Source of the DNA: Verrucomicrobiota bacterium
Lineage (GTDB): Bacteria > Verrucomicrobiota > Verrucomicrobiia > Limisphaerales > PALSA-1396
Assembly (NCBI GenBank): GCA_016200005.1
Contig: JACQFP010000068.1
Span: 1-64,000, forward strand
DNA: 64,000 bases
Direction of reading: 5' to 3'
Shown in pieces: positions 48,685 through 60,942 of the stretch (positions within the stretch are counted from its first letter, which is position 1; each line of letters begins with the position of its first letter). Both the position numbers and the translations under genes were made by a program. The notes beneath the pieces were generated by a model. The model was not told the origin of the DNA. It saw nothing but the letters and a program-made list of their open reading frames with translations, and made no database searches.

Positions 48685-49533
48685 ATGAGCGCCAATGCCA
48701 ATTTTGTTTTCAAGCGAAGCTACCGGGGCAAAGTCTCCGCCCTCATCCTCGACTGGAGCGGCACCACGGCCGACGCCTACGTCATCGCCCCGGCGGTGGT
48801 GTTTGTCGAGGTGTTTAAGAACCAAGGGGTCGAAATTTCAATGGAGGAAGCCCGCGGGCCAATGGGGCTGCGAAAAGACCTGCACATCAAGGCGCTGACG
48901 GAAGACCCTGTCATCCGCGAGCGTTGGAAGGGCGTCCACGGCAAGTATCCGAATCAAGCTGACGTGGACCGCATGTTCACGGATTTTGTTCCGGCGCAAC
49001 TGGCCTGTCTGCCGAAGTACACCAAGTTGCTGCCCGGCGTAGCCAACGTCATCAAGCGACTTCAGGCGAAGGGCATCAAGATCGGCAGTTCCACGGGCTT
49101 CACGCGCCCGATGGTGGATGTCCTGGAGAAAGCGGCGAAGAAACAGGGCTACGTGCCCGACGCGTCGGTTGCCGGCGACGAAGTGGTGCACGGCGCGCGC
49201 CCGCGACCCTTTATGGTTTACCGCAACCTTGATCTGCTGGACGCCTGGCCCATCGAATCCGTGATCAAGGTGGATGACACGATCAGCGGCGTCGGTGAAG
49301 GCTTGAACGCCGGTTGCTGGGCCGTGGGCGTGGCGCGCTACAGCAATTACATGAACATCAACTCGCTTGAGGAAGAAGCCACGTTGTCCAAGCAGGAGAT
49401 CCAACGCCGCCTGGAACAGACGCGCGAAATCTTGCGCAAAGCCGGCGCGCACTACGTCATTGACAGCCTCGCCGACATTGAAGCGGTCATCGAAGACGTC
49501 AACGGTCGCCTCGCGCGCGGCGAGAAACCTTGA
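48685..49533 (+). CDS. phnX: Phosphonoacetaldehyde hydrolase
   Basis: A 282-residue HAD-superfamily phosphonatase cleaving phosphonoacetaldehyde to acetaldehyde and phosphate. The nucleophile Asp 23 is in ALILDWSGTTAD, and the Schiff-base Lys 64 is in GPMGLRKDLHIKAL, the same spacing of 41 as in the Bacillus enzyme (Asp12/Lys53). Other HAD motifs are GIKIGSSTGFTRPM and VIKVDDTISGVGEG. It pairs with phnW in the two-step pathway. The 200-bp gap upstream (48483-48684) shows no gene. Confidence 0.95.
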   Translation: MSANANFVFKRSYRGKVSALILDWSGTTADAYVIAPAVVFVEVFKNQGVEISMEEARGPMGLRKDLHIKALTEDPVIRERWKGVHGKYPNQADVDRMFTDFVPAQLACLPKYTKLLPGVANVIKRLQAKGIKIGSSTGFTRPMVDVLEKAAKKQGYVPDASVAGDEVVHGARPRPFMVYRNLDLLDAWPIESVIKVDDTISGVGEGLNAGCWAVGVARYSNYMNINSLEEEATLSKQEIQRRLEQTREILRKAGAHYVIDSLADIEAVIEDVNGRLARGEKP

Positions 49534-50878: not shown

Positions 50879-51123
50879 GCCGTAACGATGCAGACCGACG
50901 AACCCCTCACCCTCACCCTCTCCCCATCGGATGGGGAGAGGGAACGCATTCCCGCGTACGGACGACACGCACCGTTCGGTGATTCGCCGCAACGTCGCCG
51001 GAGTTTCACCCTCTCCCCGTCGGACGGGGAGAGGGCCGGGGTGAGGGGCGTGTTCAACTGCATCGTTACGGCTAAAGGGTGGACACCGAACTGTCGCGGC
51101 TCTGTTTGGTGTCCGCCCTTTAG
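50879..51123. repeat. Nested palindromic repeats between the propeller gene and pbfA
   Basis: Perfect 15-bp arms GCCGTAACGATGCAG (50879-50893) and CTGCATCGTTACGGC (51058-51072) enclose a CCCCTCACC (50903-50911)/GGTGAGGGG (51040-51048) element with inner CTCTCCCC hairpins. Immediately after lies another stem, CTAAAGGGTGGACACC (51072-51087) with GGTGTCCGCCCTTTAG (51108-51123). It looks like one mobile palindrome inserted inside another. The 50843-51242 gap holds nothing else. Confidence 0.8.
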
Positions 51124-51242
51124 GGTGTTGCGGCTGCAGCAAGCTGTGGTGGCGTTGCCCGGATGCGACGGATTGAAGGCTTCATCAAAGCAATGAATTG
51201 CCTGCCGACGGCGAAACCGGCTACGCTGCCATCCTGAAAGCC

Positions 51243-52619
51243 ATGAATGATTCGTTCGACCATCTAAAATCGGAAGGCGACTTGAACATCTCGCCGCAAC
51301 GTAAATCGTGGTCGGCGAAACATATCAACGCCGAAACGCGCCACTGGTTGGAAGAGGACGCGAAATATTTTCTGCATCAATCACTCTCCACTCCCTGCCT
51401 GAATGTTTTGAAGAGTTGCAACGGCGCAAGCGTAGAAGACTTGCAAGGGCGGCAGCTCTTGGATTTTCACGGCAACAACGTTCACCAGGTCGGCTTCAGT
51501 CATCCGCGCGTCATCGAAGCCATCACGGCGCAAATGAAGGAGCTTTCTTTTTGCACCCGACGCTACACCAACCTGCCGGCGATCAAGCTCGCGAAGAAAC
51601 TCACTGAGCTTGCACCCGGAAATTTGAACCGAGTGTTGTTCGCTCCCGGCGGCACCAGCGCCATTGGCATGGCGTTGAAGCTGGCGCGTGTGGCTACCGG
51701 TCGCTTCAAAACCATTTCGATGTGGGATTCCTTTCACGGTGCGTCGCTCGATGCCATTTCGGTTGGTGGTGAGGCGATTTTCCGCAGCGGCATCGGCCCG
51801 TTGCTGCCCGGATGCGAACACGTTCCGCCGCCGGACAATCGTCATTGCCCGTTCAAGTGCGGTGACGCCTGCAATCTCAAATGCGCCGACTACATCGAGT
51901 ATGTGCTGGAGAAAGAAGGCGATGTCGCTGCGGTCATCGGCGAAACCGTCCGCAGCACGCCGTTCATTCCACCGCCCGATTATTGGAAACGCGTCCGCGC
52001 TGCCTGCGACAAGCACGGCGCGTTGTTGATCCTTGACGAAATTCCGCATTGCCTCGGCCGCACGGGAAAAATGTTCACCTGCGAACATTTCGATGTCGTT
52101 CCCGACATGCTCGTGATCGGCAAAGGGCTGGGCGGCGGCATTTTTCCGCTGGCGGCGTTGATCGCGCGCGCGGATTTGAACAAGGCGATGGCGCACAAGG
52201 CGCTCGGCCATTACACGCACGAAAAAAATCCGGTCGCTTGCGCCGCCGCTCTGGCAACCATTGAAGTCATCGAAAGCGGGGGTTTGTTGCAGAACGCCAC
52301 CAGGCTTGGCAAATACGCCGGGGACCAGATGCGTGGCATGATGAAAAAGCACCCGTTGATCGGCGACGTGCGCGGATTGGGTCTGTTGATGGGCATCGAG
52401 CTGGTGAACAATCGGAAGACGATGGAACGCGCCGCCGATGAAGCCGAGCAAGTGATGTATCACGCGTTGAGCAAGGGGCTGAATTTCAAACTGACGATGG
52501 GCAACATCCTCACCCTGACGCCCGCCTTGACCATCACGAAGCCGCAGATGGACAAAGCGCTGGCAATCATCAGCGACGCTCTCAATGAAATTGAATTGCA
52601 CAAGCAAATCAAAAGGTAA
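51243..52619 (+). CDS. pbfA: (R)-1-hydroxy-2-aminoethylphosphonate ammonia-lyase (class III aminotransferase fold)
   Basis: A 458-residue PLP enzyme of aminotransferase class III. PbfA removes ammonia from 1-hydroxy-2-aminoethylphosphonate to give phosphonoacetaldehyde, feeding PhnX. Matches recalled from that family are YFLHQSLSTPCLNVLKSCNG, DFHGNNVHQVGFSHPRVIEA, FCTRRYTNLPAIKLAKKL, APGGTSAIGMALKLARVATG and SMWDSFHGASLDAIS; the PLP Lys is 294 (LVIGKGLGGG). The location beside phnW and phnX supports it. ATG 51243 is used; the frame is open to TTG 51198. The main alternative would be a generic class III aminotransferase. Confidence 0.85.
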   Translation: MNDSFDHLKSEGDLNISPQRKSWSAKHINAETRHWLEEDAKYFLHQSLSTPCLNVLKSCNGASVEDLQGRQLLDFHGNNVHQVGFSHPRVIEAITAQMKELSFCTRRYTNLPAIKLAKKLTELAPGNLNRVLFAPGGTSAIGMALKLARVATGRFKTISMWDSFHGASLDAISVGGEAIFRSGIGPLLPGCEHVPPPDNRHCPFKCGDACNLKCADYIEYVLEKEGDVAAVIGETVRSTPFIPPPDYWKRVRAACDKHGALLILDEIPHCLGRTGKMFTCEHFDVVPDMLVIGKGLGGGIFPLAALIARADLNKAMAHKALGHYTHEKNPVACAAALATIEVIESGGLLQNATRLGKYAGDQMRGMMKKHPLIGDVRGLGLLMGIELVNNRKTMERAADEAEQVMYHALSKGLNFKLTMGNILTLTPALTITKPQMDKALAIISDALNEIELHKQIKR

Positions 52620-53495: not shown

Positions 53496-54863
53496 ATGAG
53501 CGCAAACCCATTCATTTGTGGAGTGATCGAAGGTTTTTATGGCCGCCCGTGGACCGGGCTGCAGCGACGGCGATTGTTCGGCTGGCTGCAACAATGGGGC
53601 ATGAACACTTACATGTATGCGCCCAAGGACGACATCAAACATCGCGCGTTGTGGCGGGAACCATACGACGATGCCGAAGCCGCCGAACTCAAAGGCCTCA
53701 TCGCCGATTGCCAGGCGCGCAACATTGACTTTGTTTATGCCATCGCGCCGGGACTTGACATCGAATACGGCGTCGATGCTTCTGCGCTGCTGAACAAGCT
53801 GCGACAGGTGGCGGGGCTGGGCGCGCGCTCGTTCGCCATCCTCTTCGACGATATTTCACATCGAATGAGGGCTGCGGACGCCGGTCGCTTTGCCACTTTT
53901 GCCGAGGCGCAAAGCAAGATCACGAACGCCGTGTTCCATTTGCTGCGCGACGAGATCGAATCAGCGCGGCTCTGGTTTTGTCCCACGCCCTATTGCGGTC
54001 GCATGGCCGGGCACGCGGTGAAGAAGTGCGATTATCTGCGCGAGATCGGCGAACGATTGGATCGCGACATTGATATTTTTTGGACCGGGCCGGAGATTGT
54101 ATCCGAAACCATTTCCCGGGCCTCCATGCGCGAGTTGCAAACCGTCCTGAAGCGCAAGCCGCTCCTCTGGGACAATCTTCACGCGAACGATTACGATTTG
54201 CGCCGGATTTATCTTGGCCCGTACGCCGGTCGCCCGCCGCAGTTGCGCGCCGAGGTCCGCGGCATCCTGAGCAATCCGAACTGCGAGTTCGCTGCGAACT
54301 TTGTCCCGTTGCGGACACTCGGCCTGTATGCGCGAGCCGGGAAAGATTGGCAACCGCGAAAAGCGTTTCGACAAGCGTTGACGGAATGGTTGCCGGAGTT
54401 CGCCAGTCGTGCGAAAGACTCCGTGACGCTCCGCGATCTGAAGTTGCTGGGCGATCTGTTTTATCTGCCATACGAATCCGGCAAGCGGGCGACTCAATTG
54501 TTGAATGATTTTGAATTCCTGTTGCGAACACCTCCGAACCGCTGGGGCAAAACGCTCACGCGTTTCGACCAGACGTGCCAGGAGATCGTGGCGTTGTTCG
54601 CGAAAGTGACCGAACTGGACGACCGCGAATTGTGTTACTCGCTTTACCGGCATCTGTGGGAGATCAAGGAGGAGGCGGTCTTGCTGCGCGCTTATTTGCA
54701 TTGGCTGAAATCTAAGCCAAAACGCGGCGAGAAGTTTTCCTCCGGAGAACATCGTCCCAAAGTCTATCGCGGCGGATTGGTCGCGGCGTTACAGCGCCTG
54801 TTGCCCATGGATGAATCCGGTTATTTTTCGCACGCCCTTGGCAAGAGGACTCGAAACAGGTAA
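53496..54863 (+). CDS. GH84 beta-N-acetylglucosaminidase (O-GlcNAcase-like)
   Basis: A 455-residue protein that starts almost directly with the catalytic barrel: CGVIEGFYGRPWTGLQRRRL. Substrate-site motifs are GMNTYMYAPKDDIKHR, YAIAPGLDI and FAILFDDISHRM, whose Asp 118-Asp 119 correspond to the catalytic pair of GH84 (Asp174/Asp175 in human O-GlcNAcase). Further family-like residues are FWTGPEIVSE and LLWDNLHANDYD. There is no signal peptide, so it should be cytosolic, unlike many secreted bacterial GH84 enzymes. The next gene encodes a GNAT of the type fused to GH84 in animals. Confidence 0.92.
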   Translation: MSANPFICGVIEGFYGRPWTGLQRRRLFGWLQQWGMNTYMYAPKDDIKHRALWREPYDDAEAAELKGLIADCQARNIDFVYAIAPGLDIEYGVDASALLNKLRQVAGLGARSFAILFDDISHRMRAADAGRFATFAEAQSKITNAVFHLLRDEIESARLWFCPTPYCGRMAGHAVKKCDYLREIGERLDRDIDIFWTGPEIVSETISRASMRELQTVLKRKPLLWDNLHANDYDLRRIYLGPYAGRPPQLRAEVRGILSNPNCEFAANFVPLRTLGLYARAGKDWQPRKAFRQALTEWLPEFASRAKDSVTLRDLKLLGDLFYLPYESGKRATQLLNDFEFLLRTPPNRWGKTLTRFDQTCQEIVALFAKVTELDDRELCYSLYRHLWEIKEEAVLLRAYLHWLKSKPKRGEKFSSGEHRPKVYRGGLVAALQRLLPMDESGYFSHALGKRTRNR

Positions 54864-54900
54864 TAGAAACCGCGTATGATTTTCTGGCGCTTCAAATGTG

Positions 54901-54959
54901 CCCTCACCCGGCCTCCGGCCACCCTCTCCCCCTCGGAGGGGGAGAGGGCAGGGTGAGGG
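54901..54959. repeat. CCCTCACCC palindromic element
   Basis: CCCTCACCC (54901-54909) and GGGTGAGGG (54951-54959) enclose a CCCTCTCCCC/GGGGAGAGGG hairpin with loop CTCGGA-like. Related elements are at 50903-51048 and 59245-59402. It lies between the GH84 and GNAT genes and could act as a weak attenuator or be a mobile palindrome. Confidence 0.75.
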
Positions 54960-55027
54960 GGGCGCACAGAACTTTAGGATTAGAATCTTGCCGAGTATCA
55001 TCCCTAACGAGCATAATACTTTCAGCC

Positions 55028-55645
55028 ATGTTACCTGAAGGATTCCAGATTCGACGCTATCTACCGCGGGATGAAGACGCGGTTTATGAAGTTTGCCTGA
55101 AAACCGGTGACAGCGGCAAAGATGGCACGCACCTCTACGACGATCCCAAAGCCCTCGGTCATATCTATGTCGGGCCATACATCCATCTCGAGCCGGAACT
55201 TGCGTTCGTGCTGGAAGACAAGGAAGGGGTTTGCGGCTATGTGATGGGCGTGTTGGACTCGAAAAAGTTTTATCAGGCGTTCGTGGACAAATGGCTACCC
55301 GGAATCCGCCAGCGCCATCCGGAACCAACCGGCGATCCGGCCACGTGGACTCCCACGCAGAAGCTTTACCATCAGTATTACCATCCAGATGTGTTTTGCC
55401 CCGAGCCGTACGATCAATACCCGTCGCATCTGCACATCGACCTGATGCCGCGCGTGCAAGGTCGCGGATTGGGGAATGACATGATGCGCGTGCTACTGGA
55501 GGAACTTGCAGCGCAAAAAACTCCCGGCGTTCATCTCGGAATGGCGCCATCCAACGCGCGCGCAGAAAAGTTTTACAAGAAGCTCGGCTTCCACGAGCTG
55601 CTGCGAACCAGCGACTCGCTTTACCTCGGCAAACAGTTTCCTTAA
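55028..55645 (+). CDS. GNAT-family protein resembling the C-terminal domain of animal O-GlcNAcase
   Basis: A 205-residue GNAT. IRRYLPRDEDAVYEVCLKTGD, LAFVLEDKEGVCGYVMGVLDSKKFYQAF and the acetyl-CoA loop RVQGRGLGNDMM, MAPSNARAEKFYKKLGF are visible. The FVLEDxxGxCGYxxGxxD block matches what I recall of the pseudo-acetyltransferase domain of human OGA and its stand-alone bacterial homologues. Unlike the human domain, the loop keeps the Q/RxxGxG/A form, so catalysis is plausible. It is encoded 164 bp after GH84 with a palindrome between them. ATG 55028 is chosen; the longer frame is repeat-derived. Confidence 0.85.
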   Translation: MLPEGFQIRRYLPRDEDAVYEVCLKTGDSGKDGTHLYDDPKALGHIYVGPYIHLEPELAFVLEDKEGVCGYVMGVLDSKKFYQAFVDKWLPGIRQRHPEPTGDPATWTPTQKLYHQYYHPDVFCPEPYDQYPSHLHIDLMPRVQGRGLGNDMMRVLLEELAAQKTPGVHLGMAPSNARAEKFYKKLGFHELLRTSDSLYLGKQFP

Positions 55646-55749: not shown

Positions 55750-57024
55750 TCAGCGAAGTTGATCGGCGTTGGCAACAACCTTCTGGATCGCTTGCGCTAC
55801 CAAACGAATTCTATCTTCATTCGCCAGCAAGACATTCTGCGGAATCCAGACCGCGTCCCGGCAAACCTGCTCACAAACGGGGCATTGCACTTTGGTATAA
55901 TCGACTCCTTTGCCGAAGAGCGGCGCACTGATGCCGTTGGCCGGTCCTTGATTTGCGTTGCGGAAGACGCCATTGGCGTAAAGTGGCTGATACCAACCTT
56001 TGGATGCGGGTACACCCTCGGCAATCAAGGCATCGAGAAACTTGTCGCGTGAAACACTCAACATCTTCTCGTCCACCCGGAAGATATACATGTGATAACT
56101 GCGGCGGGTCATGCGAGGCTCCGGCGCGAGCAAACGAATCCCCGGCACCTCGCGCAACTCACGGTCGAGGATTTGCGCGTTGGCCTGGCGTTTGAGTGTT
56201 TGCTTTTCGAGCCGGCTAAGTTGCGCCAGCAAAACGGCCGCTTGAAATTCCGTCATGCGCAGGTTGCTGCCGAGGTAGTCGTGGTCATACCATGCCGACC
56301 CCTTGCGCCGGCCGCAGTGCGAGTAACTGCGACAAAGATCCGCCAACGCCTCGTCGTTCGTGACAAAGATGCCACCTTCGCCCGCCGTGATGTTTTTCGT
56401 AACCTGAAAGCTGAACGTCCCACCTTCGCCGAGCGTCCCCGTCCCCTGCCCTTTCCATTGCGTGCCCCACGAATGCGCCGCGTCTTCGAGCACGCGCAGT
56501 TTGTGTTTGCGCGCAATCGCGTTCAAGCGATCCATGTCCGCCACGTAACCGCCGACATGCACGGGAATGATCGCCTTCGTTCGCGGTGTCAACTGGCGCT
56601 CCACGTCGTCGGGGTCCATGCAAAGTGTGTCGGGTTGGATGTCCGCAAAAACCGGAATTGCACCAACAGTAACAACGGCGCTGGCCGTGGCGATGAACGT
56701 GTACGGCGGCACGATGACTTCGTCACCCGGCAGAACACCCAATCCACGCAACGCCATTTCGATGGCCGCGGTGCCATTCGTGCAAGAAACGCCGAAGCGC
56801 GCCATCTGAAACGCGGCGAACTCCGCCTCGAACTGGCGGACTTTCTCACCGTACCACCACTTGCGGGATTCCAGGACGCCCAACAATTGTTTGCGTTCGG
56901 CGTTGTCAAAGGCTGGCCAGACCTGCCACTTGACCGGGCAGACAGGCTTGCCGCCGCTGATGGCAAGCGTGCTTGGTTGACCTTTGACGGTGGCTTTTGT
57001 TCGTTTGGTTGCGGGTCGCTTCAT
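55750..57024 (-). CDS. DegT/DnrJ/EryC1/StrS-family aminotransferase
   Basis: A 424-residue PLP enzyme from the second Met of an ATGATG (57024). The extra upstream frame is not protein-like. It has the fold features NGTAAIEMALRGLGVLPGDEVIVPPYTFIATASAV, HVGGYVADMDRLNAIARKHKL, EDAAHSWGTQWKG and the Schiff-base Lys 210 in FSFQVTKNITAGEGG. Members make amino sugars for surface glycans or antibiotics; some act as dehydratases. No sugar-nucleotide genes are adjacent, so the substrate is open. It is transcribed toward the GNAT gene. Confidence 0.92.
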   Translation of the reverse strand: MKRPATKRTKATVKGQPSTLAISGGKPVCPVKWQVWPAFDNAERKQLLGVLESRKWWYGEKVRQFEAEFAAFQMARFGVSCTNGTAAIEMALRGLGVLPGDEVIVPPYTFIATASAVVTVGAIPVFADIQPDTLCMDPDDVERQLTPRTKAIIPVHVGGYVADMDRLNAIARKHKLRVLEDAAHSWGTQWKGQGTGTLGEGGTFSFQVTKNITAGEGGIFVTNDEALADLCRSYSHCGRRKGSAWYDHDYLGSNLRMTEFQAAVLLAQLSRLEKQTLKRQANAQILDRELREVPGIRLLAPEPRMTRRSYHMYIFRVDEKMLSVSRDKFLDALIAEGVPASKGWYQPLYANGVFRNANQGPANGISAPLFGKGVDYTKVQCPVCEQVCRDAVWIPQNVLLANEDRIRLVAQAIQKVVANADQLR

Positions 57025-57190
57025 CATGCTGGTTGGGAACTTAAGAAAACCGCCCGGAAAAGGTAAGGACAAATTGGAACAACCCCACGGTGCGAATTGC
57101 CAGATTGAACGAAGCATGATTTCGTTGGGTCGAATTAAATTGATAACGCATAGGGATTGGCGAGCCGCATGATACACATTTCGACGAGCC

Positions 57191-57655
57191 ATGAATGGAA
57201 AAACACTACTTCCCACCATTCTTCTCGCGTCGTTGCTGCCCGCGCTGGCAGATGAACGCGAAACGGCTTTCGATCCTTATGCGCCGGTCAAAGCCACGAC
57301 GGAATGGAAACCGAATCCCGCGCTCTTGCGAGAACTGCTCCGCGTAAGGAGGAATTACCCGACCGTCTCGATTGGCAAAGGCGATTTCGAGGTCAGCGGC
57401 CCATTACTCCAGACGATCCGCCGGCCGCGCGATTGGTCCGATCTGAGTCTCGGACGGAAAATCCTTGCTCTGCCCGTCATCAATCTCCTCGTTCCCCAAC
57501 CAATGCCGCCGTCACCGGGCGGGGGGAAATATTTTGCGTGGGGACAAAGCGGCCTGCCGTGGGGAACGCTGGCGGAAGGTGCCGCGCCTGGGGCCGGAGG
57601 ATTTGCCCGCTACGTCAATCACGAGGCTACAGGATTGATTTCCATCGGCTGGTAA
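57191..57655 (+). CDS. Secreted hypothetical protein
   Basis: A 154-residue product with a signal peptide (MNGKTLLPTILLASLLPALAD, cleavage near ALA-D). The mature part has a basic helical section (NPALLRELLRVRRNYP) and ends in a Gly-rich stretch (PGGGKYFAWGQSGLPWGTLAEGAAPGAGGFARYVNHEA). No domain recognised. It is divergent from the DegT gene and convergent with nuoN; the 163 bp before it must hold its promoter. Confidence 0.55.
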   Translation: MNGKTLLPTILLASLLPALADERETAFDPYAPVKATTEWKPNPALLRELLRVRRNYPTVSIGKGDFEVSGPLLQTIRRPRDWSDLSLGRKILALPVINLLVPQPMPPSPGGGKYFAWGQSGLPWGTLAEGAAPGAGGFARYVNHEATGLISIGW

Positions 57656-57739
57656 ACGAGGTCAAGCCGCCTTCATCAATCCATCGTGACACGCACAATC
57701 AGCGCTCGCCTGCAAATAAAGAACTGCCACATCCGGGAT

Positions 57740-59191
57740 TTAAAGTTTCAAAGCCTTCACCGCTTCGGTCGCCAGATTGACCATCGCATTGGGAAACATT
57801 CCCAGATAAAGCATTCCCGCGATGCAACCATACAGCGAAACCCGGATGGGCCTGGACATTTCAATCGGCGACAAATCTGCCGGGTCCTTCGACCAGTAGA
57901 TTGCGCGAATGACGCCGAAATAGTAATAGAGCGAAATCACCACGCCGACAATGGCGACCGCCACCAGCCAGTAATACGACGCGTGAGCCGCACCTTGTTC
58001 CACGACGGCTTTGAACAACAGGAATTTTCCAAAGAACCCGGCCAGCGGCGGAATGCCCGCCAGCGAAACCATCGCCAGCGTCATCGTCGCCGCCAGCAAC
58101 GGAGAGCGCTGGTGCAACCCCGCCAGCGCTCCGATGTCTTCACCGTCCACTTTCCGCATCACCAGGCAGATCACCGTGAACGCGGCCAGCACCGTGAAGA
58201 GATACCCGCTCAAGTAATACAGAATCGCCGATTGGCCGGCGGCACTCAGGGCCGCCACGCCCATCAGCAGGTAACCGGCGTTTGCGATGCTCGAATAGCC
58301 AAGCAGCCGTTTCAGATTGCGTTGTGGAATGGCGCAGAGGTTTCCGTAGAGGATCGTTACCGCCGAAATCACCAGCAATAACGTCGTCCATTGCACCGTG
58401 ATCTCCGGCACCGCACTGAACAGCACCCGCAACAACAAGACAAACCCAGCGGCTTTTGAACCGACGGCGAGAAAGGCTGTCGTCGGAGCAGGCGCGCCTT
58501 GATAAACATCCGGCGCCCACATTTGAAACGGAAACGCCGCAATCTTGAAACCCAATCCGACCAGCACCAGTAAAATGCCAAACAGGAAAACCTTGTTGCT
58601 CGCGAACTGCAGTACCACCGGCGACAGTTCATCGAAATTCAACTTGCCTGTCGTCCCCCACACCAGCGCGATGCCGTAAACCAAGAATGCCGACGACAGC
58701 GCCCCCAGGATGAGGTATTTCACGCCCGCTTCGAGCGACACCAACCGCCCGCGCTGAAAACTGGTGAGGACGTAAAAGGTGACCGTGATGAGTTCGATGG
58801 AAACGAACAACAGGCTGAAATCGTTGGCGGACGCGGCGAACATCATCCCCGCCAGCGCAAACAAGATGAGCGCGTAATATTCAGAGATGCCGCTCTCGAT
58901 ACGGTCGGCGAATTCGTTCGACATCAACAACACGATCAACGCGGCCAGCAGAAAAAACCGTTTGAAGAACAATGCCAGCCCATCCAGCACATACATTTCT
59001 CCGAATGCGTACTGCGTTTCCGAAACGTGGAGCGCGAAACTGCCGGCCAGAATCAAGCCCACGCCGGCTGCCGCCACATAACCGAGTTTGCGCTTCAACT
59101 CTGTCGGCGTCCACAAGTCCGCCAGCAACAGTCCCAAACCGAGCGCCACCACCGCGATTTCCAAAATGATCAGCGAATAGTTCATGCTCAT
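57740..59191 (-). CDS. nuoN: NADH-quinone oxidoreductase subunit N
   Basis: A 483-residue antiporter-like membrane subunit of complex I, with about 14 transmembrane helices. Key conserved features include LFVSIELITVTFYVLTSFQRG (Glu in TM5), AAFPFQMWAPDVYQGAPAPTTAFLAVGSKAAGFVLLLR (Lys and Pro of TM7-8) and GIPPLAGFFGKFLLFKAVVE. It pumps protons across the inner membrane coupled to quinone reduction. Its start overlaps the stop of nuoM by 4 bp. It is the last gene of the operon here. Confidence 0.95.
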   Translation of the reverse strand: MSMNYSLIILEIAVVALGLGLLLADLWTPTELKRKLGYVAAAGVGLILAGSFALHVSETQYAFGEMYVLDGLALFFKRFFLLAALIVLLMSNEFADRIESGISEYYALILFALAGMMFAASANDFSLLFVSIELITVTFYVLTSFQRGRLVSLEAGVKYLILGALSSAFLVYGIALVWGTTGKLNFDELSPVVLQFASNKVFLFGILLVLVGLGFKIAAFPFQMWAPDVYQGAPAPTTAFLAVGSKAAGFVLLLRVLFSAVPEITVQWTTLLLVISAVTILYGNLCAIPQRNLKRLLGYSSIANAGYLLMGVAALSAAGQSAILYYLSGYLFTVLAAFTVICLVMRKVDGEDIGALAGLHQRSPLLAATMTLAMVSLAGIPPLAGFFGKFLLFKAVVEQGAAHASYYWLVAVAIVGVVISLYYYFGVIRAIYWSKDPADLSPIEMSRPIRVSLYGCIAGMLYLGMFPNAMVNLATEAVKALKL

Positions 59192-60942
59192 TTCGTAGCG
59201 GCCGACGTAAGGAGGCTCTGATCTTTTTGGGCTTTAACATCACACTCGCCCTCACCCTGACCATCTCCCTCAAGGAGAGGAGACAGCAATCGTCCATTTT
59301 CTTTGGCTTTCGAGTCGTTGAGCTTTTCAGCGACACCCGACATGCCAAGAGACGGCAAACGATTCTCCCTCTCCTGGGGGAGAGGGCCGAGGTGAGGGCG
59401 AGTCAGTGAACCAGTCAGTGGGGAACCCACCATCGCCTTCTCGCTCGATTTGCCCGTTGCCATGCTCACAATGATCTCCGCGCTCGGCATGATTTTCTCC
59501 GTCAACAATCGCGGGAAGAAACCGAACAGCAACAAACTCGCCAGCAGCAGGGCGAACGGCAACTTACGCCACGGATTGCTCGCATCCGCAACCACCGCCC
59601 ATTTTTCCGGCAGCGGACCGTGCAAAATATTCCGCACCGCCCGCAGCATGTAAACTGCGCCGATGATGAGCGCACCCCAAACCGCCAGGCTCGTTATAAG
59701 TGGAAACGCCTTCCATGCGCCGAAGAACACCGTCACCTCGCCGACAAAATTTGCAAACCCCGGCAGTCCGCACCCCGCCAGCATCGCCATCACCAGTGCC
59801 GAACCGATGAACGGCAGTTTGCGCAGCAACCCGCCAAGCTCCCCGATCTCCAGCGTCTTGGTTTGCTGATAGAGATACCCGCTCAAACCGAACGTCAGCG
59901 CCGCGAGAAAACCGTGCGCAATCATCACCACCACCGCGCCCGTGATCCCGATCAGATTGAGGCTGGCGATGCCGAGAAACACAAAGCCCATGTGCGCGAC
60001 GCTGGAGTTGCCGATCAGCAGATTCAGATTCCTTTGCCGCATGGCCACCCATCCGACGTAGAGAATGTTGCCCAGACAGAGCCACGCAACGACGTGCAGC
60101 CACCCATGCGCTCCTTCCGGCATCAGTGGCAACGCGAGCCGAATCAAACCATACAATCCAAATTTCTTCAGCACGCCGGCGTGCAACATCGCCGTCGGCG
60201 TGGGCGCCGAACTGTAACCCAACGGCGCCCAGGTGTGAAACGGCCAGAGCGACACCAGAATTCCAAATCCGAACAGCAGCAGCGGAAAAATAAAATTCTG
60301 CGCGTTGACGGAAAGTGGATTTTGCCGGATGTGCTCCGTCAGCTTTACCATGTCGAAGGTGTTCGCGCCGGATTGCAAGTAGAGAGCAATCAGACCGACC
60401 AGCGCGATCAGCGCGCCGATGCTGAGATAAAGCGTGATCTGGAACGTGGCGTAGTTCTTATTTTCCCCACGGCCCCACACGCCGATCATGATGAACGTCG
60501 GCACAAGCGCCAGTTCGTGAAAGAAGTAGAAGAAAAACAGGTCGAGCGACGCGAACGCACCGAGAATGCCGCCGGTCATCACGAGCAGCAGGATGTAAAA
60601 TTCCTTCTCGCGCTCCCTGATCTCCCACGAGCAGCACGCCGCCGCAAACGCCACAATCGCGCCCATCAGAATCAGACCAACGTTCAGTCCGTCCACGCCC
60701 AGCTTGCACGCGATGCCGAGCGATTCCGCGCCCAGTCCGGGGATGGTGCTGATAAACTTGTAACCGTTTGCATCCGTCGTTGCGTTGTTGAACTGCCAGA
60801 ATATAAGCACCGCCAGCAGCATCGTGACGAACGTCACGCCCACCGCCACGGCGCGCATGATGACGGCAAAGTTGCGCGGCACAAACGCCAGCGCGATTGC
60901 GGCGAGCAACGGTAGAGCAAAGATTAAGGTCAAAGTTGTCAT
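59188..60942 (-). CDS. nuoM: NADH-quinone oxidoreductase subunit M with repeat-encoded C-terminal tail
   Basis: A 584-residue subunit, some 75 residues longer than usual. The antiporter core is present: FFHELALVPTFIMIGVWG, SLWPFHTWAPLGYSSAPTPTAMLHAGVLKKFGLYGLIR (catalytic Lys), HMGFVFLGIASLNLIGITGAVVVMIAHG and GLPGFANFVGE. The core ends near the EKIMPSAEIIVSMATG helix. The remaining residues (RPHLGPLPQERENR ... SPLLEGDGQGEGECDV) are read from the palindromic repeat 59245-59402. The N-terminus begins MTTLTLIFALPLLAAIALAF and overlaps the stop of the ATPase gene by 4 bp. Codons 11-33 are duplicated at 63313-63382. Confidence 0.92.
   Translation of the reverse strand: MTTLTLIFALPLLAAIALAFVPRNFAVIMRAVAVGVTFVTMLLAVLIFWQFNNATTDANGYKFISTIPGLGAESLGIACKLGVDGLNVGLILMGAIVAFAAACCSWEIREREKEFYILLLVMTGGILGAFASLDLFFFYFFHELALVPTFIMIGVWGRGENKNYATFQITLYLSIGALIALVGLIALYLQSGANTFDMVKLTEHIRQNPLSVNAQNFIFPLLLFGFGILVSLWPFHTWAPLGYSSAPTPTAMLHAGVLKKFGLYGLIRLALPLMPEGAHGWLHVVAWLCLGNILYVGWVAMRQRNLNLLIGNSSVAHMGFVFLGIASLNLIGITGAVVVMIAHGFLAALTFGLSGYLYQQTKTLEIGELGGLLRKLPFIGSALVMAMLAGCGLPGFANFVGEVTVFFGAWKAFPLITSLAVWGALIIGAVYMLRAVRNILHGPLPEKWAVVADASNPWRKLPFALLLASLLLFGFFPRLLTEKIMPSAEIIVSMATGKSSEKAMVGSPLTGSLTRPHLGPLPQERENRLPSLGMSGVAEKLNDSKAKENGRLLSPLLEGDGQGEGECDVKAQKDQSLLTSAATK
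59245..59402. repeat. CTCGCCCTCACC palindromic element inside nuoM
   Basis: Perfect 12-bp inverted arms CTCGCCCTCACC (59245-59256) and GGTGAGGGCGAG (59391-59402) enclose a second CTCTCC-type palindrome, 158 bp in all. It is related to the elements at 50.9 and 54.9 kb. Uniquely here it lies within the 3' part of a coding frame, supplying the tail of NuoM. Confidence 0.8.

Follow-up and report, generated by a model that had tools for sequence, protein, structure and literature searches.

The window analysed in the current study, a stretch of 64,000 nt at the start of contig JACQFP010000068.1 of a Verrucomicrobiota bacterium, carries two neighbouring genes, one for a glycoside hydrolase of family GH84 and one for a GNAT acetyltransferase, which together represent a split version of animal O-GlcNAcase (OGA): catalytic barrel and stalk are encoded by the first gene and an OGA-like GNAT by the next, as had been proposed in the first-pass annotation. 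In bacteria, the most likely role of the pair is the breakdown of amino sugars taken up by the cell, and not the editing of proteins. The basic pairing has already been published for Oceanicola granulosus, where the gene directly downstream of that for OgOGA encodes an acetyltransferase (OgpAT) like the C-terminus of human OGA, and Rao et al. (2013) likened this gene order to the order of the human domains (PMC3814719). The window pair is a rediscovery in another phylum. New are the adjacency of the two genes across the order Limisphaerales, the pairs found in Deinococcota and Alphaproteobacteria, two bacterial fusions, and the sugar-uptake operon setting of the pair in relatives of the window.

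The GH84 gene (nt 53496–54863, + strand, 455 aa) matches the Pfam NAGidase family at 281.9 bits (cut-off 25) and is assigned to the OGA-like subfamily of beta-N-acetylglucosaminidases by family HMM, PDB matches and tree. Its (beta/alpha)8 catalytic domain (PF07555 match, nt 53517–54398, +) begins at residue 3, leaving no space for a signal peptide, and the enzyme is hence taken to be cytosolic, in agreement with the earlier annotation. The catalytic Asp-Asp pair (D118-D119, within LFDDI; nt 53847–53852, +) aligns with human D174 and D175. Human OGA constructs head the list of PDB matches (up to 1.2e-123; 50% identity over the catalytic core), and a second matched stretch (residues 308–441; nt 54417–54818, +) falls on the stalk, the helical bundle at positions 550–700 of human OGA. 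Human residues G67, K98, D174, D175, Y219, W278, N280, D285 and N313 are all kept in the window enzyme, and K98, D174, D175, Y219, W278, N280, D285 and N313 are kept in 53/53 OGA-like GH84 proteins. Besides the stalk match, a clade (starred) with human OGA and OgOGA, supported at 100/96, places the window protein in the OGA-like subfamily. It scores higher against human OGA than against OgOGA. The three domains thus have the identical order seen in human and Trichoplax OGA (GH84-stalk-pHAT), from which the window arrangement differs in being split into two genes and in having no OGT partner.

The acetyltransferase gene (nt 55028–55645, +, 205 aa) lies 164 nt downstream, as against 10 nt in a relative of the same genus. 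Within the gap there is a palindromic GC-rich repeat (nt 54901–54960, no strand assigned), further copies of which occur at nt 50914–50942 and 51007–51036. An alternative start at nt 54896 was rejected in favour of the ATG at 55028, as the extra N-terminal codons are intergenic sequence that includes this repeat. Assignment of the product as an OGA-like GNAT is based on Pfam GNAT families scoring over their cut-offs, PDB matches, tree and residue alignment. The best PDB match is OgpAT (3zj0, 3.3e-47), then SsAT of Streptomyces sviceus (4bmh, 4.1e-42), the Trichoplax OGA pHAT (6r45, 8.9e-32) and human OGA (1e-25), which bears out the resemblance to the C-terminal domain of human OGA noted previously.

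Of the residues that characterise OgpAT-like proteins, namely a P-loop of the form [Q/R]xxGx[G/A] and Thr25, His135 and Asn175 of OgpAT, the window GNAT has all the equivalents. Its P-loop, QGRGLG (nt 55457–55474, +), corresponds by alignment to OgpAT residues 143–148, which contact the acetyl-CoA pyrophosphate (PMC3814719). The pair therefore resembles OgOGA-OgpAT (PDB 2xsa, 3zj0) in having an OGA-like GH84 with stalk followed by an OGA-like GNAT with intact acetyl-CoA residues. Two OGA-specific tunnel insertions are also predicted from a gap-free alignment with OgpAT (residues 8–204 / 6–202); a structure predicted from a five-row alignment had a mean pLDDT of only 53, and the insertions were judged from sequence alone. 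Among 82 bacterial GNATs, the equivalents of OgpAT T25, H135, N175 and G148 are kept in every one (82/82) and the remainder of the P-loop nearly always, while most of these acetyl-CoA and catalytic residues have been lost from human and Trichoplax pHAT; the window protein likewise keeps the equivalents of T25, H135, D137, the P-loop and N175. Since these residues are intact, the bacterial GNAT is predicted to be a working acetyltransferase. OgpAT itself binds acetyl-CoA, whereas human pHAT does not, and the acceptor of OgpAT was described as unidentified by Rao et al. 2013 (PMC3814719).

The pairing is conserved. A GH84 match was found in 62 of 146 Limisphaerales genomes sampled, the protein being in most cases OGA-like and some 450 aa long. 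Flanking sequences were taken for 40 GH84 loci, making 41 with that of the window, and as one ends at a contig edge, 40 could be assessed. In 36 of the 40, the next gene 3' of GH84, in the same orientation, is that for the GNAT, so that the pairing within Limisphaerales is not due to chance. The two genes commonly overlap, by 4 nt (17 loci) or 20 nt (3 loci), or are separated by 4–24 nt (12 loci); three loci, including the window, have gaps of 119–170 nt, and in one the genes are fused. In one of the genomes without adjacency the GNAT gene is found elsewhere, beside an EIIC gene. As a control, an even sample of the phylum provided 45 other GH84-bearing genomes, mostly with much longer frames, and at a threshold of 1e-12 a GNAT was found in none of them. 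Outside the phylum, the pair was recovered from Deinococcota (L188, L190, L196, L157) and from an alphaproteobacterium (L170), a relative of Oceanicola whose GH84 matches OgOGA at 3e-200. Conservation of the adjacency beyond the window, on which the first-pass annotation had staked its proposal, is thus observed both within and outside the order. Adjacency is looser in Deinococci, where both genes are present but apart in some genomes. One deinococcal genome (G966, L182/L224) has an intact OGA-like GNAT beside a degraded GH84, now recognisable by no more than a C-terminal fragment in a different frame.

The settings of OGA-like GNATs without a GH84 partner in Deinococcus and Pseudomonadota are diverse, as might be expected if the GNAT acted on an unrelated amine and were merely co-transcribed with GH84. 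This is very unlikely in view of the pairs, which come from three phyla and fall in separate parts of the GNAT tree, and of the two fusions. The unpaired Deinococcus genes do, however, lack amino-sugar neighbours, which indicates that specificity for sugars is not a necessary trait of the GNAT family and counts against the amino-sugar reading developed below.

While GH84, stalk and GNAT are divided between two genes in the window, they are joined on a single polypeptide in two other cases. In L109 (G349, on a 307-kb contig) a chain of 689 aa can be aligned over its full length with human OGA (4.9e-130), spanning barrel, stalk and pHAT, and a second fusion is present in Deinococci (L157/L219, on a 3-kb contig). 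As the junctions of both are free of stop codons in every frame, a single sequencing frameshift does not account for either. A 684-aa frame of L196 that runs over the GNAT was rejected as a fusion because GH84 is read there out of frame. In the GH84 tree, each bacterial fusion is nested among split pairs, apart from the other and from the animal proteins, which suggests that at least three fusion events have occurred.

In the GNAT tree, the window protein groups with animal pHAT in a clade to which neither SsAT nor the relatives linked to PIG-L genes belong (97/97); the animal branches are very long. The window GNAT therefore falls inside the OGA-like clade, an outcome on which the earlier proposal also depended. 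SsAT (PMC3919268; PDB 4bmh) is similarly an OGA-like GNAT, but stands alone, branches outside this clade, and has related plasmid-borne copies in Streptomyces with no adjacent GH84. In the GH84 tree the animal proteins branch inside the OGA-like clade of bacteria, but a topology in which bacteria are kept separate was not rejected (AU p = 0.25). The first-pass annotation had suggested a functional link older than the fusion; this is plausible, given that fusions lie among split pairs. Animal OGA may likewise have descended from a bacterial pair of this kind.

The surroundings of the pair hint at its function. In Limisphaerales, 29 of 41 loci have, within about 5 kb, at least one gene for an ABC sugar importer, an EIIC-type permease, a BadF-type GlcNAc-kinase-like protein (NagK) or an SIS protein. 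A layout of SBP-permease-permease-GH84-GNAT, accompanied by NagK, SIS or both, is shared by three phyla, and others include GH84-GNAT-DegT-EIIC and EIIC-GH84-GNAT-NagK-SIS; partners of this kind (transporter, kinase, phosphosugar enzyme) are also linked to the pair in Deinococcota and in L170. The EIIC gene (lacE family) adjoins the pair in about 17 loci, and as none of the 12 genomes checked has more than one copy of it, its position there is not a matter of chance. Against this, the window pair itself has no transporter, kinase or SIS gene adjoining it; the EIIC gene is on another contig of the window genome, in which no close SIS homologue was found. That EIIC gene (L237, G000:C46) is single-copy and about 70–76% identical across the order. 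No other PTS gene was seen alongside it, and the permease may work without a PTS. Comparison of window nt 57191–59348 with a genome of the same genus (L238, G361:C226) shows that an SIS gene is found there next to nuoN, at the site where the window has DegT and GH84-GNAT. The SIS gene linked to the pair in other loci is related to SCO4393/NagS (3.8e-36), a GlcNAc-6-P dehydratase (PMC12680351). Relatives of NagS with lower identity lacked this dehydratase activity in that work (PMC12680351), so that distant ones may differ in activity, a further point against an amino-sugar pathway.

The first-pass annotation had tentatively envisaged that GlcNAc is taken off a cytosolic target. Read as protein O-GlcNAc cycling, this would mean that GH84 strips cytosolic proteins of their O-GlcNAc, while the GNAT either acetylates proteins or has a regulatory effect on GH84. 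The closeness of GH84 and stalk to human OGA, with retention of the peptide-groove tyrosine (human Y286), is compatible with this, and Thermobaculum terrenum has homologues of both OGA and OGT (PMC4683255). The OGA of the latter is similarly a cytosolic bacterial OGA-like GH84, but it has an OGT homologue in its genome and no GNAT has been reported with it. An OGT-like GT41 enzyme (PF13844) was sought and none was found in the window genome (G000, 96% complete), while in the order it occurs in 6 of 78 genomes and is absent from 72, although four of the six that have it also carry GH84. In addition, the helix alpha3/alpha4 insertion shared with OgpAT gives rise to a narrow tunnel and, in the animal homologue, is in steric conflict with peptide acceptors (PMC3814719, PMC12494797). 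Association with importers, GlcNAc-kinase-like and NagS-family SIS genes points instead to small imported amino sugars, and O-GlcNAc cycling is considered highly improbable.

With adjacency, fusions, intact active sites and the operon context of relatives directly established, we marginally favour a cytosolic, two-enzyme module of amino-sugar catabolism, in which imported glucosaminides are first acetylated and then cleaved. Uptake would be by an ABC sugar importer in some lineages and by an EIIC-type permease in others, and the sugars would be small beta-linked saccharides in which GlcNAc is presumably accompanied by a certain amount of GlcN without an acetyl group, for example disaccharides from chitin/chitosan or pieces of the cell wall. 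In GH84 enzymes the nucleophile is the 2-acetamido group of the substrate itself, and a terminal GlcN would consequently not be cleavable. The GNAT would acetylate the amine of this terminal GlcN from acetyl-CoA, so rendering the probable glucosaminide acceptor cleavable by GH84, and the released GlcNAc would pass to the GlcNAc-kinase-like and NagS-like SIS enzymes. From the operon context we infer glucosamine or a glucosaminide (EC 2.3.1.3) as the acceptor.

There are precedents for such a scheme. RmNag of Rhizomucor miehei, a fungal GH3-GNAT fusion, also couples a beta-N-acetylglucosaminidase with a GNAT, here a glucosamine N-acetyltransferase, cleaves (GlcN)2 only in the presence of acetyl-CoA, and an acetylate-then-cleave logic has been proposed for it (PMC4680927). 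It differs in that its hydrolase belongs to an unrelated family, and no sequence similarity to its GNAT was detected in the PDB search with the window GNAT. The lysosomal enzymes HGSNAT and NAGLU follow the same logic in succession, in their case on alpha linkages (PMC9570396). Oligomers are not the only substrates of RmNag, which also acts on GlcN (PMC4680927), and this agrees with a more general role of the GNAT in aminosugar salvage, whereby free GlcN (or GlcN after deacetylation) would be acetylated for the GlcNAc kinase, and not as a GH84 substrate before cleavage. In Alpha- and Gammaproteobacteria, GNAT relatives without GH84 are indeed surrounded by GlcNAc genes (in Falsirhodobacter, for example, NagK-ROK-GNAT-nagB-nagA), and such operons place the GNAT with NagK, nagA, nagB and sugar importers. 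The tight coupling to GH84 and at least two fusions with it suggest, however, a common substrate, and salvage of free GlcN is regarded as a lesser possibility.

A gene for a DegT-type aminotransferase is located directly 3' of the GNAT in 13 Limisphaerales loci (L092, L099, L101-L104, L107, L110, L112, L114, L116, L117, L119), followed in most by EIIC; the acetylate-then-cleave module does not account for it, a point against this reading. The DegT gene of the window (nt 55750–57219, – strand) was examined as a conserved partner and discounted, being convergent and only 42–46% identical to the GNAT-linked DegT genes, and is probably another paralogue. Genes for PIG-L/LmbE-type deacetylases (PF02585) adjoin three more distant GNAT relatives (L033, L035, L036), and an unpaired OGA-like GNAT, L205, has such a neighbour as well, judged from its sequence. 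This suggests pairs of deacetylase and acetyltransferase acting on amino sugars. Together, the DegT and PIG-L neighbours could mean that the GH84-GNAT pair processes a natural product or thiol containing GlcN(Ac), the GNAT interconverting amino groups along with the deacetylases or DegT. PIG-L neighbours are found mostly with GNATs of the outgroup clade, and sugar importers and NagK are the commoner partners, so this alternative is unlikely.

The function of the pseudo-acetyltransferase domain of OGA is still debated (PMC3814719, PMC12494797). If the preferred reading, acetylation followed by cleavage, is extended to animals, their OGA might be a fused bacterial amino-sugar pair, and its pseudo-acetyltransferase what is left, in inactive form, of a glucosaminide N-acetyltransferase by which substrates were formerly made ready for GH84. 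This is put forward tentatively, and if true would explain why a GNAT fold is found on the hydrolase of a protein modification. For bacteria, the module would represent a route for degrading partly deacetylated chitin or cell-wall sugars. The operon context offers a concrete acceptor hypothesis (GlcN or GlcN-GlcNAc) for OgpAT-like acetyltransferases, and the bacterial fusions are natural material for asking whether one chain acetylates and then cleaves.

The window derives from a soil bacterium of the Limisphaerales. Upstream of the pair it carries genes for a PhnX phosphonoacetaldehyde hydrolase (nt 48685–49533, +; 302.6 bits, cut-off 220) and a PbfA-type (R)-1-hydroxy-2-aminoethylphosphonate ammonia-lyase (nt 51237–52619, +; 706.7 bits, cut-off 525), which lie close together and form a catabolic pair for 2-aminoethylphosphonate.
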